From the NCBI GenBank assembly GCA_001717545.1, contig CP017039.1, forward strand, positions 2,356,001 to 2,420,000: DNA of 64,000 nt, in the 5' to 3' direction. The position numbers were made by a program, and so were the translations under genes. This stretch comes from Anaerolineaceae bacterium oral taxon 439. Its GTDB lineage: Bacteria; Chloroflexota; Anaerolineae; Anaerolineales; Anaerolineaceae. The notes below the pieces were generated by a model. That model searched no databases and had not been told where the DNA came from. It saw only the letters and a list, made by a program, of their open reading frames with translations. Positions 8,596 through 19,972 of the stretch are shown here, piece by piece (position 1 is the first letter of the stretch; each line of letters opens with the position of its first letter).

Positions 8596-11160
8596 TTAAA
8601 CCTGTACCGCTGTATAAATAGGCTTCAAATACGGTACAATGATAGCCTCATAGAGCTTAACCGACCATTTCGCATGGAATTTCGCAAGGACCGGCCAATC
8701 GTCTTCGTTATCGATTCCTACATCGTCTATCTTGTAGTATATCTTGGAAGATTTCTTATCGTCTCCGCGATCCCAGATCAGTTGAACACCGAGAGCTTCC
8801 TCAATTTCTACTTTGTGGGCGGCGATAATATCAAAAGCCCGCTTGTTCTCGTTATTGTCCGCTTTCCCCAGATATACCTCAACCCGTGCAGAATCAAAAT
8901 TAACTACACAACAGAGATTGAATCCTTGAATCCCGAAATAACCATTTGTCCAGTTTTCTTTCACCGGACTGCAGTTACTGAAGACTCCGCTCTCTGCATT
9001 TGTCTCTTTGATTATTTCCAGCGCATATGCCCAGAATTTTTTCCTCACTTCATAACGAGTACCGTTTATTTCTTCATCATCTTCGCTGGCATCATCATCT
9101 CTCAGATAAAAGACCAGATTTACAGGATCAAGATGGTATAAAGCAAACAGCCGCTTTAAGATAATGAGTTTCGTCCTCGTATTAGTATTGCGTTCTACAT
9201 AGATGCCATGCTCAATCTCAATGTATTCGCGGAGATCTGTCTTTTTATGGCTCACATACACTGCGAGATCAACAGATCTATCACTTTCATATGCCAGGTT
9301 GTTCAGAACTGACTTGTCTTCGGAATGCAGCAGCCGCACCACACTCTCAAACATTTCTGACCAGTTCTTTACGGATTGCTCTAATGTCAAATATGCAAAC
9401 CGGGCAATTTTACGTCCTGTCAGATTAATTTCATCGTCCAGAGTATAGGAATCCAGCTGCTTTTCGATGGGCCGGAAAACGGTTACCGGTGATGCCCAAA
9501 TCTCCAATGCCCGCTGCTGAACAAAATCATTCCTCTGCTCCAGCTCTGTTTCCGTCCACTGGCTCTGCGATCCGATCCACTGATTCATACGGATACCGCT
9601 ATCCTTGAATCCGTTTGTCATATCACGTTTTTCAAGGAAGCTGTTATTGCTGTACTTGGAGTTATAAGCCGTCAGCGTCAGGTTAGCCATCCTATGCAGC
9701 CATGTTTCATGTATTCTCTCATAATCCGATCCAAGAGCCTCTGCCCATGCCGGCGTCAAATGCTGCGGCATGATGTGTTCAATGGAATAATCGCCATCAT
9801 CAAAGTGGCGGTACACGTCCTTATCTTCAATCGTGCCGAAGTTTTCAAAGCGCTCCAAGATGTACATTTTATTCTTCGCGTTCATGGAATAAATCGGCTT
9901 TATACCAAAGGCATCCGCAAATTCCGCATCTTTCGGGAAGCGTGCCCGTTCTTTCTTGGACAGGAGAACATTTTTCAGCTTCTCCACGTAATTATCCGTC
10001 GTCCCATCGTAACGAAGCACTTCCTTGTGAAGAAGCAGGAATATCTTATTCAACTGGTTCGTGGGCAATTCACAGATCGTTCTGCGGAACAGGTAATTCT
10101 CCGTTGTCAGGAACACGTCAACCACATCATCCAACGAAAGCGTCCCTTCCGCCTGCAAACGCAGCACTTCCAGGAAGAACGGCCTCGTAACGGTAGTCTC
10201 CAGCCAGTTCAAACGATAAATACAAGATGAAAGGCGTTTGTCGGAAACTTTGCCCGTAAGCAGTATCCTGTACAGCCGCGTATAATTCAGCAGATCGATC
10301 AAAAGCGGTTCGATCTCCACATGATTGTCTTCCGCATAGCCTTTGAATGTGAAATATATCTTATTCAAAGACGGCGTAGCCTGCTGCTTTACGCTCAGAT
10401 AATCACGCACAAAGAGATCGACCTCATAATTGGTATTTTCCTCGATCTTGTTCCAATACTTTTCGTAATAGACTTCCTGCTGTTTGGAAGGCTGTCCCAT
10501 CAGGATATAGTTCCTGATCTTATCGCCTTCCAACAAATCAAGACCCGTAGAGTTCAGGCTCTCAAAGATTAACTGCGGATTATCATCGGAATCAAGGCGA
10601 ATGCTGATGATCTCCAAGCTTCGGATTGCCTGGAACAGCTCGTCAATCGTAATTTCTTCCTTCTGGATACGGTCATAAAAATAGTTATAGTTTGTCGTCA
10701 GGTTTGATCCACCAATGTGCTCCGTCTTTTCATCAAAGAGCTTACCAAAAGCCTTCCGGTCATTCTTGATCAGTTTCAGCTTAATACGGGTTTCTTCCGG
10801 CTGATACTTGTCTACCAGATAATCTTCATAAATACGGTCACTGAGGCGGCTGTCAGACGGCGCAACTTTCCCTTGTCGGATCAGATTGTACATAGCAAGC
10901 AGCAGTAGCGACACGGTAGTCAGGCGCTGCTGCCCATCTATAATCTGATACTCCTCATTGTCCCCATCCGGATTATAGGTGGAGACTATGCTGCCAAAGA
11001 AGTGATTCTTTCTCTTGTTCCGAATCACCTTTACCAGATCGTTATATAGCTGCTTGCAGTTTTCGATCTTCCAGTCATAGTTTCTTTGGTATACCGGAAT
11101 GACGAACCGCTTGTCTGCGCCCTCCATATACTTTATCAGCTTTGTCTCCGAGCCTTTCAT
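8596..11160 (-). CDS. GmrSD-like DUF262/DUF1524 restriction nuclease
   Basis: An 854-residue protein with the GmrSD order. An N-terminal DUF262 domain (about 1-210) has IPVYQRNYDW (21-30) and the NTPase-like IIDGQQRLTT (73-82). A helical middle follows, then a DUF1524 HNH-type nuclease at about 440-515 with IEHIMPQH (460-467) and NLTLTAYNSKYSN (493-505). The C-terminal 280 residues resemble a DUF4268-type domain (about 590-740), which often accompanies nucleases. Known GmrSD enzymes are NTP-dependent type IV nucleases that cut modified phage DNA. Both catalytic regions look intact, so the gene is probably functional. It lies 21 bp downstream of the deoxyribosyltransferase-like pseudogene, in line with the CBASS operon. 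Confidence 0.85.
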   Translation of the reverse strand: MKGSETKLIKYMEGADKRFVIPVYQRNYDWKIENCKQLYNDLVKVIRNKRKNHFFGSIVSTYNPDGDNEEYQIIDGQQRLTTVSLLLLAMYNLIRQGKVAPSDSRLSDRIYEDYLVDKYQPEETRIKLKLIKNDRKAFGKLFDEKTEHIGGSNLTTNYNYFYDRIQKEEITIDELFQAIRSLEIISIRLDSDDNPQLIFESLNSTGLDLLEGDKIRNYILMGQPSKQQEVYYEKYWNKIEENTNYEVDLFVRDYLSVKQQATPSLNKIYFTFKGYAEDNHVEIEPLLIDLLNYTRLYRILLTGKVSDKRLSSCIYRLNWLETTVTRPFFLEVLRLQAEGTLSLDDVVDVFLTTENYLFRRTICELPTNQLNKIFLLLHKEVLRYDGTTDNYVEKLKNVLLSKKERARFPKDAEFADAFGIKPIYSMNAKNKMYILERFENFGTIEDKDVYRHFDDGDYSIEHIMPQHLTPAWAEALGSDYERIHETWLHRMANLTLTAYNSKYSNNSFLEKRDMTNGFKDSGIRMNQWIGSQSQWTETELEQRNDFVQQRALEIWASPVTVFRPIEKQLDSYTLDDEINLTGRKIARFAYLTLEQSVKNWSEMFESVVRLLHSEDKSVLNNLAYESDRSVDLAVYVSHKKTDLREYIEIEHGIYVERNTNTRTKLIILKRLFALYHLDPVNLVFYLRDDDASEDDEEINGTRYEVRKKFWAYALEIIKETNAESGVFSNCSPVKENWTNGYFGIQGFNLCCVVNFDSARVEVYLGKADNNENKRAFDIIAAHKVEIEEALGVQLIWDRGDDKKSSKIYYKIDDVGIDNEDDWPVLAKFHAKWSVKLYEAIIVPYLKPIYTAVQV

Positions 11161-11181: not shown

Positions 11182-11531
11182 TTAAATTGCTTCCAGATAA
11201 TGCACCAGTTTCCCGGCGGCTACAGCATAATCAATCTCTGATCGCGTACTGGAGCCGATATAACCGCCGACATTAATGACATAAATCTCATCTGTCATGT
11301 CGATCTTACACTTATGCATATCACCCAGCATCTCTTTTGTTTTCGTCAGCGTTCCCTCGTCCAGGTTCTCCAGACTTCGTTATCGCCGGAATGACCGAAG
11401 AGACCGACCCTGATTACAATATTGCCTTCCAGCGTCAGCCTTTTTTGAACCTCCATGGATTCGTCCTTGAAGCGGGTACTGCCACATAGGGTTACAACTT
11501 TATTGTTTCCTTGCAGAGCAAACAATTCCAT
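11182..11531 (-). pseudogene. Nucleoside deoxyribosyltransferase-like gene, frameshifted
   Basis: The frame opens with NNKVVTLCGSTRFKD and continues to GLFGHSGDNEVW, then goes out of frame. One base further on it resumes as ENLDEGTLTKTKEMLGDMHK and DEIYVINVGGYIGSSTRSEI, ending at TAA 11182-11184. The two parts together form one small protein of the nucleoside 2-deoxyribosyltransferase-like fold (CGSTRF phosphate-loop motif near the start). Loss of a single G near 11371 (TGGGAG to TGGAG) explains the break. The ATG overlaps the effector stop as TGATG, so the gene was translationally coupled to the CBASS operon. It may be a recent inactivation or a sequencing error. Confidence 0.75.
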
Positions 11532-12355
11532 CAAAAAATCTTCCTGCCTTTTTCCTCAAAGCGTCTTCTTCCGTCCTTACTCTGTTGGAACACATACAAA
11601 TGCTCGACATTTCCTCTTCCACCTAAACCAAATGCTCTTTTTGCAATATGCTTTGTATTCATTGGATTAGTGGTGGCATAAACGTTTACTGACACTTTCC
11701 CCTTTAAGCCTCTGATACACTTGATTATTGCCTCAATATATTTTTGGCTAAAATGACGAGAACTGTCTGCGCAACTGTTTCTGCTGATCTTGATTGTCCT
11801 ATATCCTTGTTTTGCTTTCGGAATCTGCCGCGCTTCAATGGCATACGTGTCTTCCAAAACAAGGTTGATTTCCCTGGTCGGCTCCTCTTGATTCGTCTCT
11901 GAAACTTTACTATCCGATTCATTCTCTACAACTGGATATTCCGTTTCATCCAGTGGGTATTCTGGAAAAGTAGCTCTTATTACCAATTTGAATTGCATAT
12001 GGATTGGTACGAGCACTAAATCGCAACTCTTGATTCCAAGGATTTTTGCACAAAAGCAATACCAAGCATAACAGTAGTCATGATAAACGCGCTTACGGTT
12101 CATAACGAATCCATGATTAAACTTCCTTATCCCAATTAGAACAGCAAAGAATAATACGACAGAGGCGACGGGTTTGCCCATTCTAAATGCGGCTTGCCAA
12201 AAAAAGTCATCCGGAGAAATTGGATGGTTAGCCAGATACTCCTTGAATATCTCCTGTAAATCAACAAACCACGGTATAGAAGTCACAATTATAAGAGCCA
12301 CTATCTCTAATATCTGTCTTCCATTACTTGAAATCTTTTCACAAAGTTTCTTCAT
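11531..12355 (-). CDS. Two-TM protein, candidate CBASS effector
   Basis: A 274-residue protein encoded last in the CBASS block, overlapping cap3 by 17 bp. Two transmembrane helices are clear (about 15-33 and 61-78). They are followed by a Cys/Tyr-rich stretch (YHDYCYAWYCFCAKILG), a strand-rich segment, an acidic linker (about 135-165) and a C-terminal alpha/beta region of about 110 residues. In CBASS, effectors with two or four TM helices bind the cyclic nucleotide and disrupt the inner membrane after infection. This one has no SAVED, TIR, nuclease or phospholipase motif I can see. It might be a distant Cap15-like 2TM-beta protein or a separate family. The effector role is inferred from position. 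Confidence 0.65.
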   Translation of the reverse strand: MKKLCEKISSNGRQILEIVALIIVTSIPWFVDLQEIFKEYLANHPISPDDFFWQAAFRMGKPVASVVLFFAVLIGIRKFNHGFVMNRKRVYHDYCYAWYCFCAKILGIKSCDLVLVPIHMQFKLVIRATFPEYPLDETEYPVVENESDSKVSETNQEEPTREINLVLEDTYAIEARQIPKAKQGYRTIKISRNSCADSSRHFSQKYIEAIIKCIRGLKGKVSVNVYATTNPMNTKHIAKRAFGLGGRGNVEHLYVFQQSKDGRRRFEEKGRKIF

Positions 12356-12887
12356 CTTGCAGCACGCTCTCTTTTATATAGATTCCGTTCGTATCTTTTT
12401 CACATTCATAAGCTTCCTGGATTTCTCTGGTCATAAGATCCCCAACCCAAAGTCGCCATTCATCAGTACCAGCAATGACAAAAAAGACATATTGGCACCC
12501 TGTCTTATCAGAGTGCATGGTTTCATTCCAGTCATTCCAATCAATATCTGACGGCACTGGAGTTTTTTGTGGATGTGTATGCCATACACCCATATAATAG
12601 CTCTTATGGCGTCTAGCCTTTTTCAAGAACATTTGATGCCGCGGATCTCGTATATCAAACCTTACGCGACTCTTTATATCCATGAGGTACGGATGTGATA
12701 CAGCTTCTAAAGAAACATTGCACGTATGTTCATGCTGATACCCTACTATATACCCACCGCTTTCTGGCTTGGAGCAATCATCCTGTATCCATTTACAAAT
12801 CTCATCCAAAACCGGACTGAGAACATCAACTACTTTGCCGTTCGGAAGACCTACTTTTACACATTTGCTATCTGACCGTATCTCCAC
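12339..12887 (-). CDS. cap3: Cap3 JAMM-family peptidase of type II CBASS
   Basis: A 182-residue JAB/MPN metalloprotease. The zinc-binding JAMM signature is complete: E42 in PESGGYIVG, then H103, H105, S113 and D116 in GVWHTHPQKTPVPSDID. In type II CBASS, Cap3 removes conjugates made by Cap2 and so restrains signalling. The gene overlaps cap2 by 20 bp upstream and the effector by 17 bp downstream, as expected for tightly coupled translation. Length and motif spacing match known Cap3 proteins. Cys residues in the N-terminal half (C9, C31, C38, C56) are not part of the active site. Confidence 0.9.
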   Translation of the reverse strand: MEIRSDSKCVKVGLPNGKVVDVLSPVLDEICKWIQDDCSKPESGGYIVGYQHEHTCNVSLEAVSHPYLMDIKSRVRFDIRDPRHQMFLKKARRHKSYYMGVWHTHPQKTPVPSDIDWNDWNETMHSDKTGCQYVFFVIAGTDEWRLWVGDLMTREIQEAYECEKDTNGIYIKESVLQDEETL

Positions 12888-14535
12888 AACAATTACATGC
12901 CTCCATCGGGAATTCCGTGTCAGAAATAGTGATTCTTTCTGGTGTTATATCTATCAGAGTATTCGCTATAATCTTATGCTCATCATAATCTTGTATTACA
13001 TCCAACAAGGCCGCTGTTGTTCTAAGAAGAATAGCAGTTCCATAGGCAGCCCTTGTACCTCCACACCCATTTCGAATTATGCCATTTTCCGTAGCTGTCG
13101 ACGAATTCTTCCTGGCTCTATTATTCACATATTCTCCATTTGAATCTGTATACAGACATTCAAAACATCCAGACATCCAATAATTGACAAAAAGAATATG
13201 GCTATTGGTTCCACCTTCTTCAAGCCAAACAAATATTGCCGGTATGGGGCAGTTTGATTTTTTTAATACGCTGTTAAGTTTTATCTGTTCGTCGCTACTT
13301 CCAATAGTCAATATGATCAAATCCTTGTCGCTGATTTCCTCCATCAAAGACTTCGCACTTATATTCTCCCCACATGCTTCTATGCTGATTTCTGGGTGAA
13401 GCAGCTTTAGTAAAATCTGAATAGTTGTTGCTTTATTTGAGCCCTTGCCAATGCCTCCATATGCCCAACGAAGAACATTCTCCTCTTCAAGCTTGTCGCC
13501 ATCATATATCTTCAAATATTTTGCACCGTTTTTTACAAGTTCAAACGCGACATAGCTCCCTAAAGAACCGGCACCAATAAGCAAAATTCTCTTCTTCAGT
13601 AATCCTATGTCATTTCCTATTTGCTCACACAAATATGAGTAATCCTTTCTCTCAGTAGGAAGAGGCTCAAGTGCTACAATATCTGAGAGTAGTTTCTCCA
13701 GCAATGTATGATTGTTGCCGTTTTTACACTTTACCTTAAGAGCAAATGAAACGTTTGAGAGAGCTGTTCTCATTCCGAAAACAAGAATAACGTCTTGTGT
13801 TTTTGGAACAACGCTTTTAATAGACCGGAATGTTTCGTCACTGATATGTTCGATTTGTTTTCCGTAAACGATGCTTTGCACTTCATTCGCAGTCCATTGG
13901 TAACCTCTGTGCGGCGGGAGAATGCCCCTGCTATCTGTCACTGGAATATAGAACACATCGTTTTCGATATGATGAATCCATTTCCGCTCAGTTTTTTCTC
14001 TGTCATCTATATCTGTAAGTTTTAGCCATTTCTGAATTAGGCGGACTTTTTGTGCGCCGTAAAACGCATCCAATTCTGTGAATTGCGTAGCTTGCTCTAA
14101 ATATACAGAGAACTCTTTATCTCCAACAGATTCACTGTTCCAGTAGTACATGAATTCCTTCTGAAATTCTCTTTCACGCTCTACTGGAGTCATGGATAGT
14201 AGTTCAATTAACCGGTCAACACAATCAAAAATCTTATCCTCATATGAAACAATCATGTTTACTATGCTTTCTTGTTCAAAAAGGCATATCCATCTATATG
14301 TCCCATTGGGGAGATCTTTTCCTTCGGTAATTGTGTTTTCCCGAAGCATGACATGCGGATAATCCAGTAGGTTATCATTGTACAGATATACAGCGGCCTT
14401 TGAAGAAGGATTATCTTTAACAGGAGCAAAAAACAGGAATTTCTTTTCAAACAAAGTAAATAAAAACGCTCCTTCAAGAACCTGCTTCTCTACAGTGATC
14501 TCCTCGTATGATTCTAATATCTCTTTTACAGTCAT
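12868..14535 (-). CDS. cap2: Cap2 E2-E1 fusion of type II CBASS
   Basis: A 555-residue fusion of a ubiquitin-E2-like N-terminal domain and a ThiF/E1-like C-terminal domain. The likely E2 cysteine is C84 in YRWICLFEQE. The middle region (about 115-300) carries the linker and inactive E1-like part. The adenylation domain starts with RILLIGAGSLGSYVA (316-330), the ATP-binding glycine loop. The candidate E1 cysteine is C491 in NGCGGTRAAYG. C457/C460 (CFEC) and C549/C550 (CNCC) could form a structural zinc site. Known Cap2 activates the C-terminus of its CD-NTase and links it to a target, boosting cyclic nucleotide synthesis. The gene starts 3 bp after the CD-NTase stop. Confidence 0.9.
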   Translation of the reverse strand: MTVKEILESYEEITVEKQVLEGAFLFTLFEKKFLFFAPVKDNPSSKAAVYLYNDNLLDYPHVMLRENTITEGKDLPNGTYRWICLFEQESIVNMIVSYEDKIFDCVDRLIELLSMTPVEREREFQKEFMYYWNSESVGDKEFSVYLEQATQFTELDAFYGAQKVRLIQKWLKLTDIDDREKTERKWIHHIENDVFYIPVTDSRGILPPHRGYQWTANEVQSIVYGKQIEHISDETFRSIKSVVPKTQDVILVFGMRTALSNVSFALKVKCKNGNNHTLLEKLLSDIVALEPLPTERKDYSYLCEQIGNDIGLLKKRILLIGAGSLGSYVAFELVKNGAKYLKIYDGDKLEEENVLRWAYGGIGKGSNKATTIQILLKLLHPEISIEACGENISAKSLMEEISDKDLIILTIGSSDEQIKLNSVLKKSNCPIPAIFVWLEEGGTNSHILFVNYWMSGCFECLYTDSNGEYVNNRARKNSSTATENGIIRNGCGGTRAAYGTAILLRTTAALLDVIQDYDEHKIIANTLIDITPERITISDTEFPMEACNCCGDTVR

Positions 14536-14538
14536 ATC

Positions 14539-15558
14539 TTATCCAAAACTATGTTCTCGCTTGTTTTGAGCAGATGCCGCAACCGCTTCTTTGGCCGGTA
14601 CTGTAAAACTGTCTCCCAACACCTTCTGAACATACTCACCGGCATCGTGTGCAGACTCAACATTCACAGCGTTTGTGAGATTATCAACCGCCTTTGAAAG
14701 TCGGTTATAGAAAGTTGTCATGTATAAGCTGCTGCTATCTTTCATCTTTTTGAATACATCCGTATACGGAGTTACGGGAAGATATCTTGTTATCGTCTTT
14801 ATCAGATTTCCATTGCTGTCAACCGTATACGTGAATTTATCCAGGATGCCGTTCATTGTCTTCTGCAACGAAAGCAAGTCATCGTCTCCCTCGTTCGTGG
14901 ACTGTGCTGAAAAGCAGTCACAGGCAAGAAGCGTCAATCCTATACTCGGAGGCACTTCATAATCATTCGATGATCCGGAATACTGCTCATTCCGCCATTT
15001 TTTTATAAAGCATATGATTCGGCGTAGTTGATCATTGCCATTAATCCGGCCACACAAATAATCATTTAAGCCATCAGGATCCGCATATTCCCATGAATAG
15101 TTGCTGCTGAACTCTTTACCCCTTGCGAGAAAAACACAACCGCAGTCTGTTGCATAAAGAGGTAAATCAATATGGAGCCATTCTTCTCTGTTTTCATAAT
15201 ACGATGCTCTGACGCAGGGTTCTTTAATTGTTACCGTGCGCGAAGAGATGTTGATAGCATCCCGTAGATATCCCTTGATTTTACGCGGATCTGAATTGGC
15301 CGAAGTATCCAGCGGTATCATAACCGCAACATCGCGATCCACGATATCGTCTTTAATCGTAGTATTGTACTTGTAACTTCCCTGGTCAATCATTCTAATA
15401 TCACTTCTGCTAATACTGATACTGTGATCTCCAAGGATACCCGGTAGTTTTGTTTTTATATCATTTTCTAATACTTCTCGCTTTTCTTTCAGAGCATGAG
15501 TCTCACAGTCAATGCGGATTTCTTTGTAGAAATCTTCAAACTCTTTCTTTAATTTCAT
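14539..15558 (-). CDS. CBASS CD-NTase (cGAS/DncV-like nucleotidyltransferase)
   Basis: A 339-residue nucleotidyltransferase with the CD-NTase active site: G60-S61 in MIDQGSYKYNT, D74 and D76 in DRDVAVMI, and the third Asp D131 in LHIDLPLY. It should make a cyclic di- or trinucleotide signal when phage infection is sensed. The C-terminus is NKREHSFG, ending in glycine, which fits attachment through Cap2 as known for type II CBASS. A GAGGAGG ribosome site lies 6-7 nt before the ATG. I cannot assign the clade or the product nucleotide from motifs alone. Together with cap2, cap3 and the two-TM gene it forms a compact operon of four overlapping or adjacent genes. Confidence 0.9.
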   Translation of the reverse strand: MKLKKEFEDFYKEIRIDCETHALKEKREVLENDIKTKLPGILGDHSISISRSDIRMIDQGSYKYNTTIKDDIVDRDVAVMIPLDTSANSDPRKIKGYLRDAINISSRTVTIKEPCVRASYYENREEWLHIDLPLYATDCGCVFLARGKEFSSNYSWEYADPDGLNDYLCGRINGNDQLRRIICFIKKWRNEQYSGSSNDYEVPPSIGLTLLACDCFSAQSTNEGDDDLLSLQKTMNGILDKFTYTVDSNGNLIKTITRYLPVTPYTDVFKKMKDSSSLYMTTFYNRLSKAVDNLTNAVNVESAHDAGEYVQKVLGDSFTVPAKEAVAASAQNKREHSFG

Positions 15559-15568
15559 AGAAACCTCC

Positions 15569-16561
15569 TCATTCCACTCCCAGCGCCTTATATACCGCGT
15601 CCTCGGCGCTGCTATAGAAAATCAGGTTGAAGCATCCAACCAATTCTGCAGGCACAGTGCCAAGATCGCCTGCGGATGTGATCGGCAGCAACACCTTCTT
15701 CGCCCCGCTATCCAAGCAAACCTGCAGCGCATTTGCAAGCTCATCTACCTTGATGATAGTACCAATAATACTGATCTCGTCCAGAACGGCCAGTGAGATT
15801 ACGATCGGTTTGCTCAAAGCGATTGAACTAAGCGCAACCAACGTCGACAGCGCCAGCCTGTTGGTCATCCCGATGCCCTGTATATCCTGATAGTTTACGA
15901 TGTAATCCTTTGTGGTCGTGTTGATAGCGCCGCTGATCCGATTTCCGTTCGCTTTCAGGAAGCTGAAAGCAGTGTTTGAAGCTTCCCGACACTCCCGATC
16001 CGAGCCGAGGCCAGTGCGATCAAACTTGCCATTACCCGGAAGCATCTGAGATTCCAGACGGAACACTCCAATCATACCGGACTTTCCACGGGATACGGTA
16101 TATACCTGTCCCGAATTGCACATCCCCTCCGGTATCAGCTTTCCGCCGCCCTGTTCCAGAACGGAAACATAGTGTTCCTCAAATGACTCGTTATCGATAT
16201 AGGAGAAGTTCACATCGTAGAACTCCATGCCGCCCAGCTTTTTCATCTGCTCCTTGACGCGGCGGCGCATCTCCAGCGCCATTGTCAGAATCTCTTCGCT
16301 CTGGTTCGGGCAGAATGCCTCGTTATAATTCAGGCAGGCATAGGTGGCATCCGGCCACTCCTCCGTCATCTGCCCAAACGGCACTTTAAAAATAACAGGC
16401 GTACTGGCCCCCACCCCTGCCTCCAGGAAGAGCACATGCTCCCCATCGATCTTTTTCAAAAATTCCGCATAAGCGGCAGACGTATGATACCATCCTTTAT
16501 CCTCCACAAAGCTGTCTTCTTTCCACTGCTGCGACCGGGCATACCTCCATACAGTTCCCAC
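15569..16561 (-). pseudogene. SirTM C-terminal / BrxL C-terminal chimera
   Basis: One open frame of 330 residues made of two unrelated pieces. Residues about 15-86 are a SirTM fragment (DKGWYHTSAAYAEF, TPVIFKVPFGQMTEEWPDAT, YACLNYNEAFCP). From about residue 88 the sequence is the C-terminal part of a BrxL-type Lon-like protein (GGKLIPEGMCNSGQVYTVSR, GLGSDRECREASNTAF, DSGAKKVLLPITSAGDLGT). The switch is near 16300. The BrxL AAA+ ATPase half is missing, and the catalytic Lys of true Lon is not found at the aligned place. BrxL belongs to BREX phage defence. The frame stays open across the junction and stops 10 bp before the CD-NTase, but a function is doubtful. Confidence 0.75.
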
Positions 16562-17135
16562 AATGCAGGCAGTGTTCCTGTTCGATTACATGAGGGATAC
16601 TGTCGGTAATAATGCAGTTCTGAGGGCAGACCGCCGCGCACCTTCCGCAGCCAATACAGGTATCGGTAATAAAAAATCCTTCCTGCTTCTTTTCGGTGCC
16701 GCCAAACGTGAAAGACGCTCTCTCAATCGGTTTCTTTGACAGATCGAACCATTCGCCTGTACCTTCATATATCTGGAACGCCGACAGTGCATGCATGGAT
16801 TCTTCCGTCGGATAGATCTCGTGCATGTATGGATTCTTTTCAAAGAGTTCCGGGATCTTGTCATAGCCGAGCTCCCGAACTTTACCACGAACAGACACCG
16901 CCACGCTGGACATGCTGTCCTCCCCCTTTATCGCAGTGAGCGCAAGGAAATGTCGTTTGATGAGCCGGTCATAGAAACCCTTGCCCCTTGCGGTGAGGAA
17001 ATACAGGCTGTTGTCATCACTGTCCATCATGTCGATGGCTGCCGTAACGGGTAACCCTTCGTCATCAACCGTTGCTGCAATCGTCGTATGGATCACTTTT
17101 GAAATATATGCAAGATAGTCTCTTGTCTCCATCAT
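16497..17135 (-). CDS. PNPOx-fold flavoprotein with two 4Fe-4S sites
   Basis: A 212-residue protein. Residues about 5-140 form a pyridoxamine-5-phosphate-oxidase-like split barrel, and the tail is a ferredoxin with CIGCGRCAAVCP (160-171) and CLHCGNCMEVCP (189-200). Such fusions are found in anaerobes and are presumed FMN or electron-transfer proteins; the substrate is unknown. The ATG directly follows the stop of a flavodoxin-like remnant (TGA-ATG), suggesting an old redox operon. The last residues (RRQLCGG) run into the SirTM fragment of the next gene in another frame, so the natural C-terminus may have been replaced. Confidence 0.8.
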   Translation of the reverse strand: MMETRDYLAYISKVIHTTIAATVDDEGLPVTAAIDMMDSDDNSLYFLTARGKGFYDRLIKRHFLALTAIKGEDSMSSVAVSVRGKVRELGYDKIPELFEKNPYMHEIYPTEESMHALSAFQIYEGTGEWFDLSKKPIERASFTFGGTEKKQEGFFITDTCIGCGRCAAVCPQNCIITDSIPHVIEQEHCLHCGNCMEVCPVAAVERRQLCGG

Positions 17136-17284
17136 TCAATCCTCCTTCGCAGCAAGATATTTACCCAGTTCTTTGCCAAGCGTTCGAGCAATACTGATGC
17201 TTTGTCCGGGCAAAGAAGTGGTGTACGCTGTCCCAAATCGACAGCCGCCGCGGTTCCCATGTGTGAATAGTCTGTGATATTGTC
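17136..17284 (-). pseudogene. Flavodoxin/NAD(P)H oxidoreductase 3' remnant
   Basis: Complement reading ends with GNRGGCRFGTAYTTSLPGQS and ARTLGKELGKYLAAKED, then TGA at 17136-17138. This is the C-terminus of a flavodoxin-fold FMN reductase family protein. In the preceding bases a one-base shift separates it from TDYSHMG, which probably belongs to the same protein. No N-terminal part is present. It sits directly upstream of the PNPOx-ferredoxin gene. Confidence 0.6.
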
Positions 17285-17446
17285 TTAGAGAATAATCTTG
17301 GAAATTGTCCCGCCGTCCGCCATGATGAACATCAGTTTGTTATGATGGACGGAAGGAGGATTCCTGTATATGAGAAAGGTATCGCTGCGAATGAACGAGG
17401 AATACTGCTCTGCATCATCCGGGCCGTAAAAATAATCGAAACTCAT
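17285..17446 (-). pseudogene. RepA-type replication initiator 5' fragment
   Basis: A strong GGAGG lies 6-7 nt before an ATG at 17444-17446. The product starts MSFDYFYGPDDAEQYSSF, closely matching the N-terminus of RepA-like initiators of Firmicutes plasmids and integrative elements, and then degenerates into a stop at 17285. Only about 53 residues remain. It shows that plasmid- or ICE-derived DNA took part in building the island. Confidence 0.55.
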
Positions 17447-17472
17447 GTCGCTCCTCCGTATGTATCGGCAAT

Positions 17473-17519
17473 AAAAAAAGATGTTTACCTGAATCCCCGA
17501 AGGGAAACAAATAAACGTC
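17473..17519 (-). terminator. Hairpin terminator after second SirTM copy
   Basis: On the minus strand a long imperfect stem with G-U pairs closes a TTCG tetraloop and is followed by seven T. It lies 40-86 bp after the stop of the second SirTM copy (17559), in front of the RepA fragment. Confidence 0.7.
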
Positions 17520-17558
17520 TTACTGCCTGTACCTGTCATTCAGCTCTCTTGTTCGTGA

Positions 17559-18470
17559 TTACAGTTTGGAGAGAATCTCTCCAATGTCTCCGTTGATGCA
17601 GATGGATTTCTCTTTGATCTCATCCGGAGCAAATGCCTGTCCGTAATTCAGACAAGCATAAGTGGCATCCGGCCATTCTTCCGTCATCTGCCAGAATGGC
17701 ACTTTAAAAATAATTGGCGTATTGAAGCCAGTGCCGGCATCCAGGAAGAGAACTTTCATGTTCTTATGCCGTCTAAGGAATTCCGAATACCGTTCCGCCG
17801 CCGCATACCAGCCTTCGTCCTGGACGAAAGTATCGTCCGCACGAAGGTTCATCGTCATATCCGATCCATCATCCGGGCACTTCGGAATCAGATCCGTCGG
17901 GATACGCATCTTCAATTCTCCATCCGCCGGAACCTGGAACACACCGTCCGCATCTCTGACAAAATCTTGTGATTCCATTGCCTTCATGACCCATTCTTCG
18001 TTGTCATAGGTCTTTTGAAGCCTGTGATTTACACTCTGGAACAGGCCATAATCGCCCTGCGTATAGTAGAGCCGTTTTTTATCAAAGCCTGCTGCCTGGA
18101 ACCGATGATCCACATTTGTGGTAATCACGAAGTAATCCTTGTCCTTAACCAGGTTCAGCAGCTCCTGATATACGGGCTTAGATGTGTCGACATAGCGATT
18201 ATAGTAAATATGCCTGGCCCATCAGGCCCAGCGCGTTTCATCATCCGGGAAAGGATAGAAGCCGCCGGAATACATGTCACTGATCCCGAATCGCTCAGCA
18301 AAGTCGTAAAAGTATTTATCAAAGCGTTCTCCGCTGTAAGTGAAGCCGGCTGATGTAGAAAGACCGGCGCCAGCTCCGATGATCACTGCTTCGGCATCCA
18401 GAAGCGCCTTCTTCAGCTTGCTGATTCCGTCCGGCGTGTCATACGGACGAATGTATACCTGCCCTCTCAT
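17559..18470 (-). pseudogene. Second SirTM copy with in-frame TGA
   Basis: The complement reads as an almost full SirTM of about 303 codons. It has the NAD-binding GAGAGLSTSAG, then YSGGFYPFPDDETRWA, a TGA at 18222-18224, WARHIYYNRY in the same frame, TTNVDHRFQAAGFDKKRLYY, CPDDGSDMTMNLR, PFWQMTEEWPDATYACLN and the end GDIGEILSKL. Everything apart from the TGA fits the family. The start at ATG 18468-18470 (MRGQVYIRP) is preferred because a GGAAAGG site precedes it. The stop falls where relatives have an aromatic residue (WAFW-type). No SECIS-like stem was noticed, so a nonsense mutation is most likely. Sequence type is Firmicutes-like and unlike the split host copy. Confidence 0.8.
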
Positions 18471-18611
18471 GCCGCACACCGCCTTTCCTCAGCTCTGTAA
18501 CGGGGTAATCGTGAAGCGCCCGAACGCCATCGTAAAGTATCCAACCTCTTTTGTGAAATAACCATATCCTGCCGCTTATCCATTTTTGTGTGCAATAAAC
18601 CTGTTTCCTGC

Positions 18612-19093
18612 GTGTTATACCCGATCCCCAGTTCCCAATACAGCGTTTTCGCCATCCTCCGTTTCTCCAGAAAAAGTTCGTAGCGCCGCGACGCCGCGTA
18701 CCAGCCGGCGTCCTGAACGAAGCGGGCGTCAACGCGTAAATTCGTCGTCATCATCCTCCCGTCATCCGGGCAAATCGGCGCCAGATCAGCAGGAATCTCC
18801 ATCCGGATCGCCCGATCGTCCGGAAGCGTCAGCGAACCGTCCGCGGCGATCGAGAATCCCTGAGCCAGGACCATTTCACGAATCGCCGTCTCGTTCTCAT
18901 ACGTCTTCCCAGCCGATCGGCCCGACGGAAGCGAGCTCTGGAAAAGCCCATAATCCCCCTGCGTATAATACAACCGCCGCTTGTCAAATCCCGACCCCGC
19001 ACCAATGACGACCGAATCAGCCGCGTCAAGCGCCATTTTCAGCCGCTCTGTTTCACGGGCTATTCGACCGCTGGAAGCCTCCGGCGCGCTCAT
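18612..19093 (-). pseudogene. 5' piece of split host SirTM gene, with internal deletion
   Basis: From the ATG at 19091-19093 the frame gives a SirTM N-terminus (RLKMALDAADSVVIGAGSG), jumps straight to FDKRRLYYTQGDYGLFQ, continues through APICPDDGRMMTTNLRVD and stops being SirTM at LYWELGIGYNT (18616). Two defects are visible. About 100 residues between the glycine loop and GFDK are deleted in frame, and the C-terminal part has been replaced by island DNA. The missing tail lies at 7585-7771. Codon use is host-like. The gene follows the macrodomain gene with a 42-bp gap, the usual partnership. It cannot encode an active ADP-ribosyltransferase. Confidence 0.85.
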
Positions 19094-19135: not shown

Positions 19136-19972
19136 TCAGGAAAGAAGTTCCTCATAATAATCCCTGTCTTCATCTTGAAACACGTTAAACACAACCCGCC
19201 CCATCCGTCCCGGATTTTCCGCCAGCCAGCCGACCGCCGACGAAACGGCAATCTCCGCGGCGCGTCGTTTCGGAAAGCGAAAAACGCCCGTCGACAGGCA
19301 GCAGGAAGCTACGCTGCGAAGTCCTTCCGCCGCGCAGAGGTCGAGCGTATTCCGATAACAGGCCGCCAACGCCTGCTCATCCGCCGCCGTCAGCTCCTCC
19401 CGGACAATCGGACCCACGACGTGGATCACCTTTTTCGCCGGAAGGTTATAGCCGTCGGTGATCGTCGGAACCGCTGTCGGCTGCGTATATTCCTCCCCAT
19501 ACAGCGCTTTCAGCGCCTCCATTTTCCGTTCGCATGCCTCCCGCAGCTGAACCCCGGCGAACGTATGGATCGCGTTATCGATACAGCCATGGCACGGGAC
19601 GAAACAGCCCAGCATCGCACTGTTCGCAGCGTTGACGATCGCGTCGATCGACAGCCGCGTGATATCCCCCTGCCAGACCGACAGCACGTCTGCGAACGGA
19701 TTCGCACCGCCGTATGCGTCCCGGATCGTCGGGATCGCGTCCAACCCAACCCGTCCGGCTTCGGCCGCCCGAGCCGACAGGTAAGCGTCCTGAATTTTCA
19801 AAACCTCTTCGGAAAGCGGCCCCGGCGGGCGAACGTTCATCAGCGAACGCAGCAGCCGCCGTTTCATCGCCGGATCGGACGGCGTCTTCATACCCGCGTA
19901 CTCGCTTGCCTCCCGCTTAAAGGCTTCGATCAGGAAGTCAAGCCGCTCGCTTTGCGTCATCATCCGTTCCAT
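19136..19972 (-). CDS. Zinc-type macrodomain, protein ADP-ribose hydrolase
   Basis: A 278-residue protein with a helical N-terminal extension (about 1-90) and a macrodomain (about 92-275). ADP-ribose-binding motifs are present: WQGDIT (100-105), IVNAANSAMLGC (112-123) and STGVF. CFVPCHGC (123-130) provides the Cys/His ligands of the zinc-containing macrodomain class that is linked to SirTM. In characterised SirTM operons this hydrolase removes ADP-ribose that the sirtuin adds to a lipoylated GcvH-like carrier. Here the sirtuin partner is destroyed, and neither lplA nor gcvH-L is in the window. The gene overlaps rrf2 by 35 bp. Several Met codons near the start make the exact N-terminus uncertain. 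Confidence 0.9.
   Translation of the reverse strand: MERMMTQSERLDFLIEAFKREASEYAGMKTPSDPAMKRRLLRSLMNVRPPGPLSEEVLKIQDAYLSARAAEAGRVGLDAIPTIRDAYGGANPFADVLSVWQGDITRLSIDAIVNAANSAMLGCFVPCHGCIDNAIHTFAGVQLREACERKMEALKALYGEEYTQPTAVPTITDGYNLPAKKVIHVVGPIVREELTAADEQALAACYRNTLDLCAAEGLRSVASCCLSTGVFRFPKRRAAEIAVSSAVGWLAENPGRMGRVVFNVFQDEDRDYYEELLS

Follow-up and report, generated by a model that had tools for sequence, protein, structure and literature searches.

Does the single open reading frame that joins a piece of the class M sirtuin SirTM to the C-terminal part of the BREX protein BrxL encode a genuine two-domain protein, or is it a by-product of recombination? The frame lies in the stretch of 64,000 nucleotides of Anaerolineaceae bacterium oral taxon 439 that was analyzed here (hereafter, the window; contig CP017039.1, positions 2,356,001 to 2,420,000). 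It occupies 15569..16561 on the minus strand and runs over 330 aa from a GTG start to a TGA stop with no internal stops; the plus strand of the same interval, read from the first base, contains four stops. The initial annotation had described one 330-codon frame without a stop at about 16300, leaving the strand unstated, and the chimeric frame is confirmed as a real sequence feature. According to our analysis, it looks like a recombination product and not like a conserved protein. We read it as a deletion scar, ordinary in kind, in an eroding defence island with a complete-looking CBASS operon downstream (probability about 0.84). A literature search found no publication on a SirTM–BrxL fusion and none treating BrxL and SirTM together. 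Below, L and G numbers denote loci and genomes, respectively.

The larger part of the frame, residues 89–330 (15572..16297, minus strand; PADLOC, PDB 8emh), is the C-terminal part of BrxL and comprises the end of the AAA+ module and the Lon-like C-terminal domain, the presence of the latter being seen in Pfam, PADLOC and PDB matches. The PADLOC BrxL profile PDLC02506 matches residues 83–330 with its positions 433–680 of 680 (E 2.4e-89), PDB 8emh/8emc match residues 88–330 with positions 437–679 (E 1.4e-65), and NCBIfam TIGR02653 matches residues 79–329 with positions 424–674, with a score of 282.7 bits, the whole-protein cut-off being 628. The absence of the ATPase half, as first described, is borne out by the start of the PADLOC match at profile position 433 of 680. 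Only the last 38 positions of the Pfam BrxL_ATPase model are matched, the N-terminal domain and the AAA+ ATPase with its Walker motifs are not present in the chimeric frame, and a search of the whole source genome found no second BrxL piece. In comparison to the BrxL of type I BREX, only the C-terminal 242 residues are kept in the frame; the N-terminal domain is gone, and so is almost the entire AAA+ ATPase (domain boundaries according to the accessible part of PMC10164562). These 242 residues are up to 92.6% identical to the BrxL of a Lachnospiraceae MAG (L148/L033) and 92.1% identical to that of a Solobacterium MAG. Unlike in type I BREX, no other BREX gene adjoins the brxL tail. The type I gene set was represented in the search of the source genome by BrxC and PglZ, and neither gave a match, both searches being run without a positive control.

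The SirTM part comprises residues 14–85 (16307..16522, minus strand) and was recognized by a match to PDB 5a3a, in which these residues correspond to 204–275 of 303 (E 1.2e-6), and by nucleotide identity to the SirTM gene of locus L034. It is a C-terminal piece, about 72 residues long, that belongs to the final third of the enzyme. The HMM search suggested for the two halves succeeded with PADLOC and NCBIfam for the BrxL part and failed for the SirTM part, which is named by no Pfam, PADLOC or NCBIfam model; the proposed order, with SirTM up to about residue 86 followed by the Lon-like part of BrxL, agrees with the PDB and PADLOC matches. Compared with SirTM (class M sirtuin, PDB 5a3a), the fragment is devoid of the NAD-binding part: the TTN and QG stretches of intact SirTM relatives align upstream of it, which indicates that the catalytic part with the QG motif is absent. 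Presumably, Asn118, Gln137 and Arg192 all precede residue 204, if the numbering of 5a3a is the one used for these residues in the literature. The three residues are described as essential for SirTM catalysis in the accessible text of PMC4518038. Two further SirTM copies lie nearby, and both are damaged. The second copy of the source genome (17559..18479, minus strand), 61% identical to the frame over residues 15–90, has an in-frame TGA stop at 18222–18224, and the first copy (18467..19093, minus strand) has an internal deletion that includes the NAD-binding part, as well as an unrelated end.

Three pieces and two joins can be distinguished in the frame, the joins lying near 16511–16522 and 16295–16306. 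Residues 1–13 (16523..16561, minus strand) precede the start of the SirTM match at residue 14; since they are unmatched to SirTM and overlap, in another frame, the end of a PNPOx-ferredoxin (PNPOx-Fer4) gene, we count two joins and not one. This gene (16497..17135, minus strand; Pfam Fer4 and PNPOx_N) is 77–80% identical to those of L195, L193 and L189, and join 1 (16511..16522, minus strand) stands in place of its normal end; there, the 3' end of PNPOx-Fer4 passes into the C-terminal part of SirTM. Join 1 was read by eye in a DNA comparison with the PNPOx ends and SirTM genes of L189, L193 and L195: the sequences are GAAAGAAGATAGCG at the PNPOx end of L193, GATGACAGCTTCG in the SirTM of L195 and GAAAGAAGACAGCTTTG in the window.

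Join 2, from SirTM to brxL (16295..16306, minus strand), lies where the initial annotation had placed a junction, near 16300. As a proxy for its true parents we used L034, a Solobacterium MAG (JAFRJJ010000090.1) with 88% identity in the BrxL part. The intact SirTM and brxL genes of L034 have an 11-nt word in common, AACAGATCGAA, whose codon phase is identical in the two; the window departs from it at two of the 11 letters. The sequence across the join is CCG AAC CAG AGC GAA GAG ATT CTG in the window, CCG AAA CAG ATC GAA AAG in the SirTM of L034 and AAA GAA CAG ATC GAA GAG ATC CTG in its brxL. Identity changes sides here: the 60 nt to the left agree with L034 SirTM at 42 positions, versus 24 for brxL, and the 60 nt to the right agree with L034 brxL at 54 positions, versus 18 for SirTM. 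The word is the joint-longest (one of two) of 12 same-strand words of at least 9 nt common to L034 SirTM and brxL, and random pairs from the two genes fell within a run of 11 or more at a frequency of 2.25e-5 (400,000 position pairs), in a test run after the join had been picked from the alignment. If the comparison is made with the other SirTM gene of that genome (L189 8832–9839), the word is missing from the 8 longest of the 14 shared words.

Downstream of the frame and on the same strand, a CBASS set with Cap2/Cap3 looks complete, with the CD-NTase, E1-E2, JAB and effector genes side by side. It consists of the CD-NTase (14539..15558, minus strand; PADLOC Cyclase PDLC00795, E 1.1e-91), Cap2 (12868..14535, minus strand; PADLOC E1-E2, E 2.2e-254), Cap3 (12339..12887, minus strand; PADLOC JAB, E 6.1e-44) and a SUa-2TM effector (11531..12355, minus strand; Pfam PF18179, E 5.7e-54). 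The CD-NTase starts 10 nt past the brxL stop, and a full Shine–Dalgarno (SD) sequence, GAGGAGG, lies between this stop and its ATG. The operon is followed by the first part of a small gene with a broken frame (11346..11534, minus strand; three-frame reading), intact in L034 (9637–9981), which PADLOC did not match and which we take to be deoxyribosyltransferase-like. Beyond it stands a GmrSD-DUF4268 type IV restriction gene (8596..11160, minus strand; Pfam), 89.5% identical to that of L034. The GmrSD of L034 (9997–13122, 1041 aa) runs on into a macrodomain, and the window copy stops earlier, at 854 aa. Upstream of the frame, the PNPOx-Fer4 gene, SirTM copy 2 and SirTM copy 1 are succeeded by a full-length macrodomain ADP-ribosyl hydrolase gene (19136..19972, minus strand; NF003163, E 1e-86), which adjoins SirTM copy 1 and not the fused SirTM fragment; what is presumably an Rrf2-like gene lies further upstream. 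The stretch 17130–17570, between SirTM copy 2 and PNPOx, is remnant-like, and one frame in it ends in SIARTLGKELGKYLAAKED; at a guess, this may be the tail of an FMN reductase. In G+C content, most of the left flank lies at 55–62% and the macro gene at about 60%; the CBASS block has about 40%, and the surroundings of the brxL tail about 50%.

In L034, brxL, GmrSD, SirTM and PNPOx are all found on one contig. There, brxL is followed by two small genes, the deoxyribosyltransferase-like gene and GmrSD; the genes before brxL are, as we assume also from their position, pglX- and pglZ-like, and SirTM and PNPOx-Fer4 are located further on, on the other strand. The second of the small genes is TIR/ThsB-like by PADLOC, and the first is without a PADLOC match. 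As these two genes stand between brxL and the deoxyribosyltransferase-like gene in L034, the CBASS operon of the window fills the same slot. In the genus to which the window belongs, the redox locus has the order nadh-rrf2-PNPOx-macro-SirTM in G042 (L195) and rrf2-PNPOx-macro-SirTM in G047 (L193).

These arrangements bear on the proposal that BREX, SirTM and CBASS genes recombined in the same defence island, which can be retained in part: recombination, and the sharing of an island by BREX and CBASS, are supported, whereas SirTM as a defence gene and CBASS as a partner in the join are not. It appears that one island once housed BREX, GmrSD and CBASS genes, given the brxL and GmrSD of L034, the lower G+C content of the block and the CD-NTases found after brxL elsewhere. 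SirTM belongs to a redox/ADP-ribosylation locus beside this island, of the nadh-rrf2-PNPOx-macro-SirTM kind seen in G042 of the same genus, and CBASS is no partner in the join. As in the BREX islands with GmrSD (BrxU) described in the available portions of PMC11341690 and PMC12409352, GmrSD is near brxL in L034 and likewise in the window; in contrast to them, the window is missing the BREX core genes and has CBASS in the cassette slot.

The search for islands in which an intact brxL precedes the same CD-NTase, suggested in the initial annotation, found none. At the cut-offs used, this CD-NTase was found in the source genome itself (G000) and in G047 among 147 family genomes, in 1 of 392 genomes and, at 45% identity, in 1 of 17 genomes, and none was confirmed in viral contigs. 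The CBASS relatives of G047 and G368 (about 66% identity in the CD-NTase) have other neighbours and no brxL tail. Other CD-NTases do occur after brxL, in 4 of 107 downstream ORFs scanned with PADLOC Cyclase and Pfam SMODS (out of 195 ORFs downstream of brxL, from 70 loci). One is that of L043 (9495–10832; PADLOC), which has relatives in L081 (8190–9014) and L100 (9361–10185; phmmer E 5e-34 and 5e-32, respectively); all three start 543–584 nt past the brxL stop, and the best cyclase model of the L043 type differs from that of the window.

The simplest history of the locus would involve two deletions. A redox locus with PNPOx and SirTM would once have had as its neighbour a BREX island composed of brxL, a variable defence cassette and GmrSD. 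In one deletion, the final third of SirTM would have been brought up to the end of the PNPOx gene; in the other, through illegitimate recombination at the word of about 11 nt found in the same phase in SirTM and brxL, the sequence from the last ~20 codons of SirTM through codon ~442 of brxL would have been cut out, and the BREX operon would have been lost with it. As SirTM and brxL read the joining word in one phase, the chimeric product would have stayed open. The CBASS operon downstream of brxL would have been left untouched, and the brxL tail would remain as a mere leader of the CBASS genes and carrier of the ribosome-binding site of the CD-NTase. We infer the order of these events and the loss of the BREX genes in that same deletion; a role of the remnant as leader of the CBASS genes is most likely. 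Further lesions lie within about 8 kb, namely the deletion in SirTM copy 1, the stop in SirTM copy 2 and the broken deoxyribosyltransferase-like gene.

An ancestor with PNPOx-SirTM upstream of BREX and in one direction was not found in L034, L189, L191 or L192. Both SirTM and brxL are carried by L034/L189 and by L192, in another order or direction than in the window; as SirTM lies downstream of brxL in L034 and G168, the immediate ancestral order was not found among them. A separate observation concerns a serine recombinase-like protein that ends in the macro gene, at about residue 131, in L189 (6571–8869), L192 (3162–5391) and L213 (2991–3600), belonging to G148:C66, G168:C18 and G469:C1, respectively; the macro gene that is hit sits just upstream of SirTM. 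These are large serine recombinase-like proteins; with the one in G148, the other two share 51% and 48% identity. The end site is the same in 3 of the 3 genomes with a near-full-length copy among the 20 BrxL-bearing genomes searched, 8 more of which have only weaker relatives (27–34% identity at the best match), and brxL is situated about 12, 8 and 60 kb from it in L189, L192 and L213. In the source genome, the macro gene is intact and the recombinase has no more than two weak relatives. The macro gene may serve a BREX-bearing element as attachment site, which would account for brxL meeting SirTM.

A conserved, genuine SirTM–BrxL-C protein has next to no chance of being the right explanation. 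The open frame is the sole point in its favour, and each piece lacks most of its enzyme. The same two-domain protein in many genomes would have pointed to a real architecture, as the initial annotation foresaw; it was looked for in 147 family genomes, including the window's own (E cut-off 1e-5; 34 with some match), in 244 genomes from the order that includes G148 (1e-15; 72 with a match) and in 392 from the order that includes G147 (1e-20; 77 with a match, no more than five candidates being scored per genome), these two orders being sampled evenly from larger groups. Among the matches listed, one that spans the SirTM and the BrxL part together occurs only in the window's own genome (other family genomes, 0 of 146; the two orders, 0 of 244 and 0 of 392). 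Apparent matches over residues 12–330, at 63–69% identity, turned out to be ordinary BrxL over-extended into the ATPase in the three that were read (L038, L040, L042); they came from a contig scan with 457 stretches and 427 relatives, of which the best 80 were kept. A match over residues 71–330 in L033 was ordinary BrxL on reading. Several SirTM matches that reach residue 100–154 have internal stops, and three of the stop-free ones, L214–L216, have no BrxL part. Counted by locus, with duplicates included, the BrxL-C matches comprise 126 full-length frames, 15 that pass the contig or locus end and 19 short ones; the 19 include 3 of the window and represent 11 distinct other loci. In these 11, no SirTM was found within up to 900 nt upstream in three frames, little upstream sequence being visible at L180 and L182, near a contig end. 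They bear frameshifts, stops and truncations, and one of them (L098, Lachnoanaerobaculum saburreum DSM 3986) is beside an integrase-like gene, directly before the truncated brxL, that we take to be a tyrosine integrase; its 5'-truncated brxL is another natural BrxL-C remnant. It is also very improbable that unlinked pieces were joined in silico through an assembly or binning error. A short match such as that at join 2 could equally be the site of a false join, but the genome is a single 2.95-Mb contig with 99.89% completeness, it holds neither the rest of brxL nor a BrxC or PglZ match, and the GmrSD and deoxyribosyltransferase-like genes beyond CBASS are those that come after brxL in L034.

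The signals for translation are uneven along the frame. Its GTG start has 2 of 6 SD letters, a poor ribosome site; the GTG of residue 50, which belongs to the SirTM piece, has 5 of 6, the best among the in-frame starts, and the ATG at residue 94, the first in the BrxL part, has 4 of 6. Translation of the chimeric protein is probably weak or absent, and we infer that the frame lacks a function and is most likely idle. Two terminator-like sites lie on the same strand, at 15641–15625 in the brxL tail and at 16480–16464; the region has 5 such sites, versus 2.2 (standard deviation 1.7) in shuffles. The AlphaFold model of the fusion (mean pLDDT 36.5, pTM 0.28) is too poor to judge the fold. For the BrxL-C branch, three-point estimates (means over 8 outgroups) gave a dN of 0.029 versus 0.010 for L148 and a dS, near saturation, of 0.41 versus 0.37. 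The dN of the window was higher in 4 of 4 comparisons, exceeding that of L148, L118, L035 and L036 by factors of 3.0, 3.8, 1.8 and 1.6. The dN/dS of the window in these comparisons (0.070, 0.042, 0.032 and 0.048 versus 0.027, 0.048, 0.056 and 0.022) was higher in two and lower in two and, at about 0.03–0.07, far from neutral. At 104 columns invariant in 60 other sequences, the window has 5 private changes, the next most being 3; the 60 were taken, by closeness, from 105 distinct ungapped matches and include 7 contig-end loci and 2 truncated brxL genes. Selection on BrxL-C may have been relaxed, but this is only hinted at, since dN/dS is raised in just two of the four comparisons.

Two functional readings of the brxL tail have to be weighed against this background. 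It is possible, although we consider it doubtful, that the tail was kept for translational coupling, in which ribosomes ending on brxL would feed the CD-NTase and SirTM would be passive, a reading compatible with a scar and not exclusive of it. The 10-nt gap with GAGGAGG from the brxL stop to the CD-NTase ATG and the single strand throughout would suit such coupling, but the CD-NTase, having a strong SD of its own, would not need it; furthermore, its relatives in G047 and G368 come after other genes, and the terminator-like sites, if real, would oppose read-through. A regulatory fragment had been considered in the initial annotation; it is unlikely that the cell makes a BrxL C-terminal fragment, whether from the start of the fusion or by initiation inside the frame (for instance at the ATG of residue 94), that works in trans on host or prophage transcription or on the CBASS operon. 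The reading draws on Salmonella, in which an engineered, overexpressed 807-nt brxL 3' fragment led to genome-wide transcription changes with prophage genes up, according to the available part of PMC9009780, an effect mentioned also in the accessible text of PMC11341690. The window remnant is nearly the same part of BrxL, starting at codon ~443 where the StySA fragment starts at codon ~427 (its 5' 1278 nt being replaced; PMC9009780, same part). The accessible text of PMC10164562 describes isolated BrxL-C as a soluble monomer and as carrying no Lon protease motif. An active fragment would also agree with the open frame, a dN/dS that is not clearly raised and the internal starts at residues 50 and 94; the poor site at the first start, the five private changes and the two CBASS relatives without a brxL tail beside them speak against it. 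The Salmonella StySA fragment is, in the available part of PMC9009780, a laboratory construct driven by a cat cassette, with no SirTM piece and with the other BREX genes present. That the scar freed a natural BrxL-C fragment, a counterpart of the engineered Salmonella one, at the head of the CBASS operon, where it would have a regulatory role or would divert phage anti-BREX factors as a decoy, is quite unlikely.

Overall, the deletion scar remains our preferred reading of the locus. An open chimeric frame of this kind could be called a Lon-like protease in annotation. At the same time, the window provides a natural BrxL C-terminal fragment with which the regulatory effect reported of such a fragment could be tested. 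For the organism itself, the locus points to the erosion of a defence island, in which BREX was apparently lost through a short-homology deletion and the next module, CBASS, is complete-looking.
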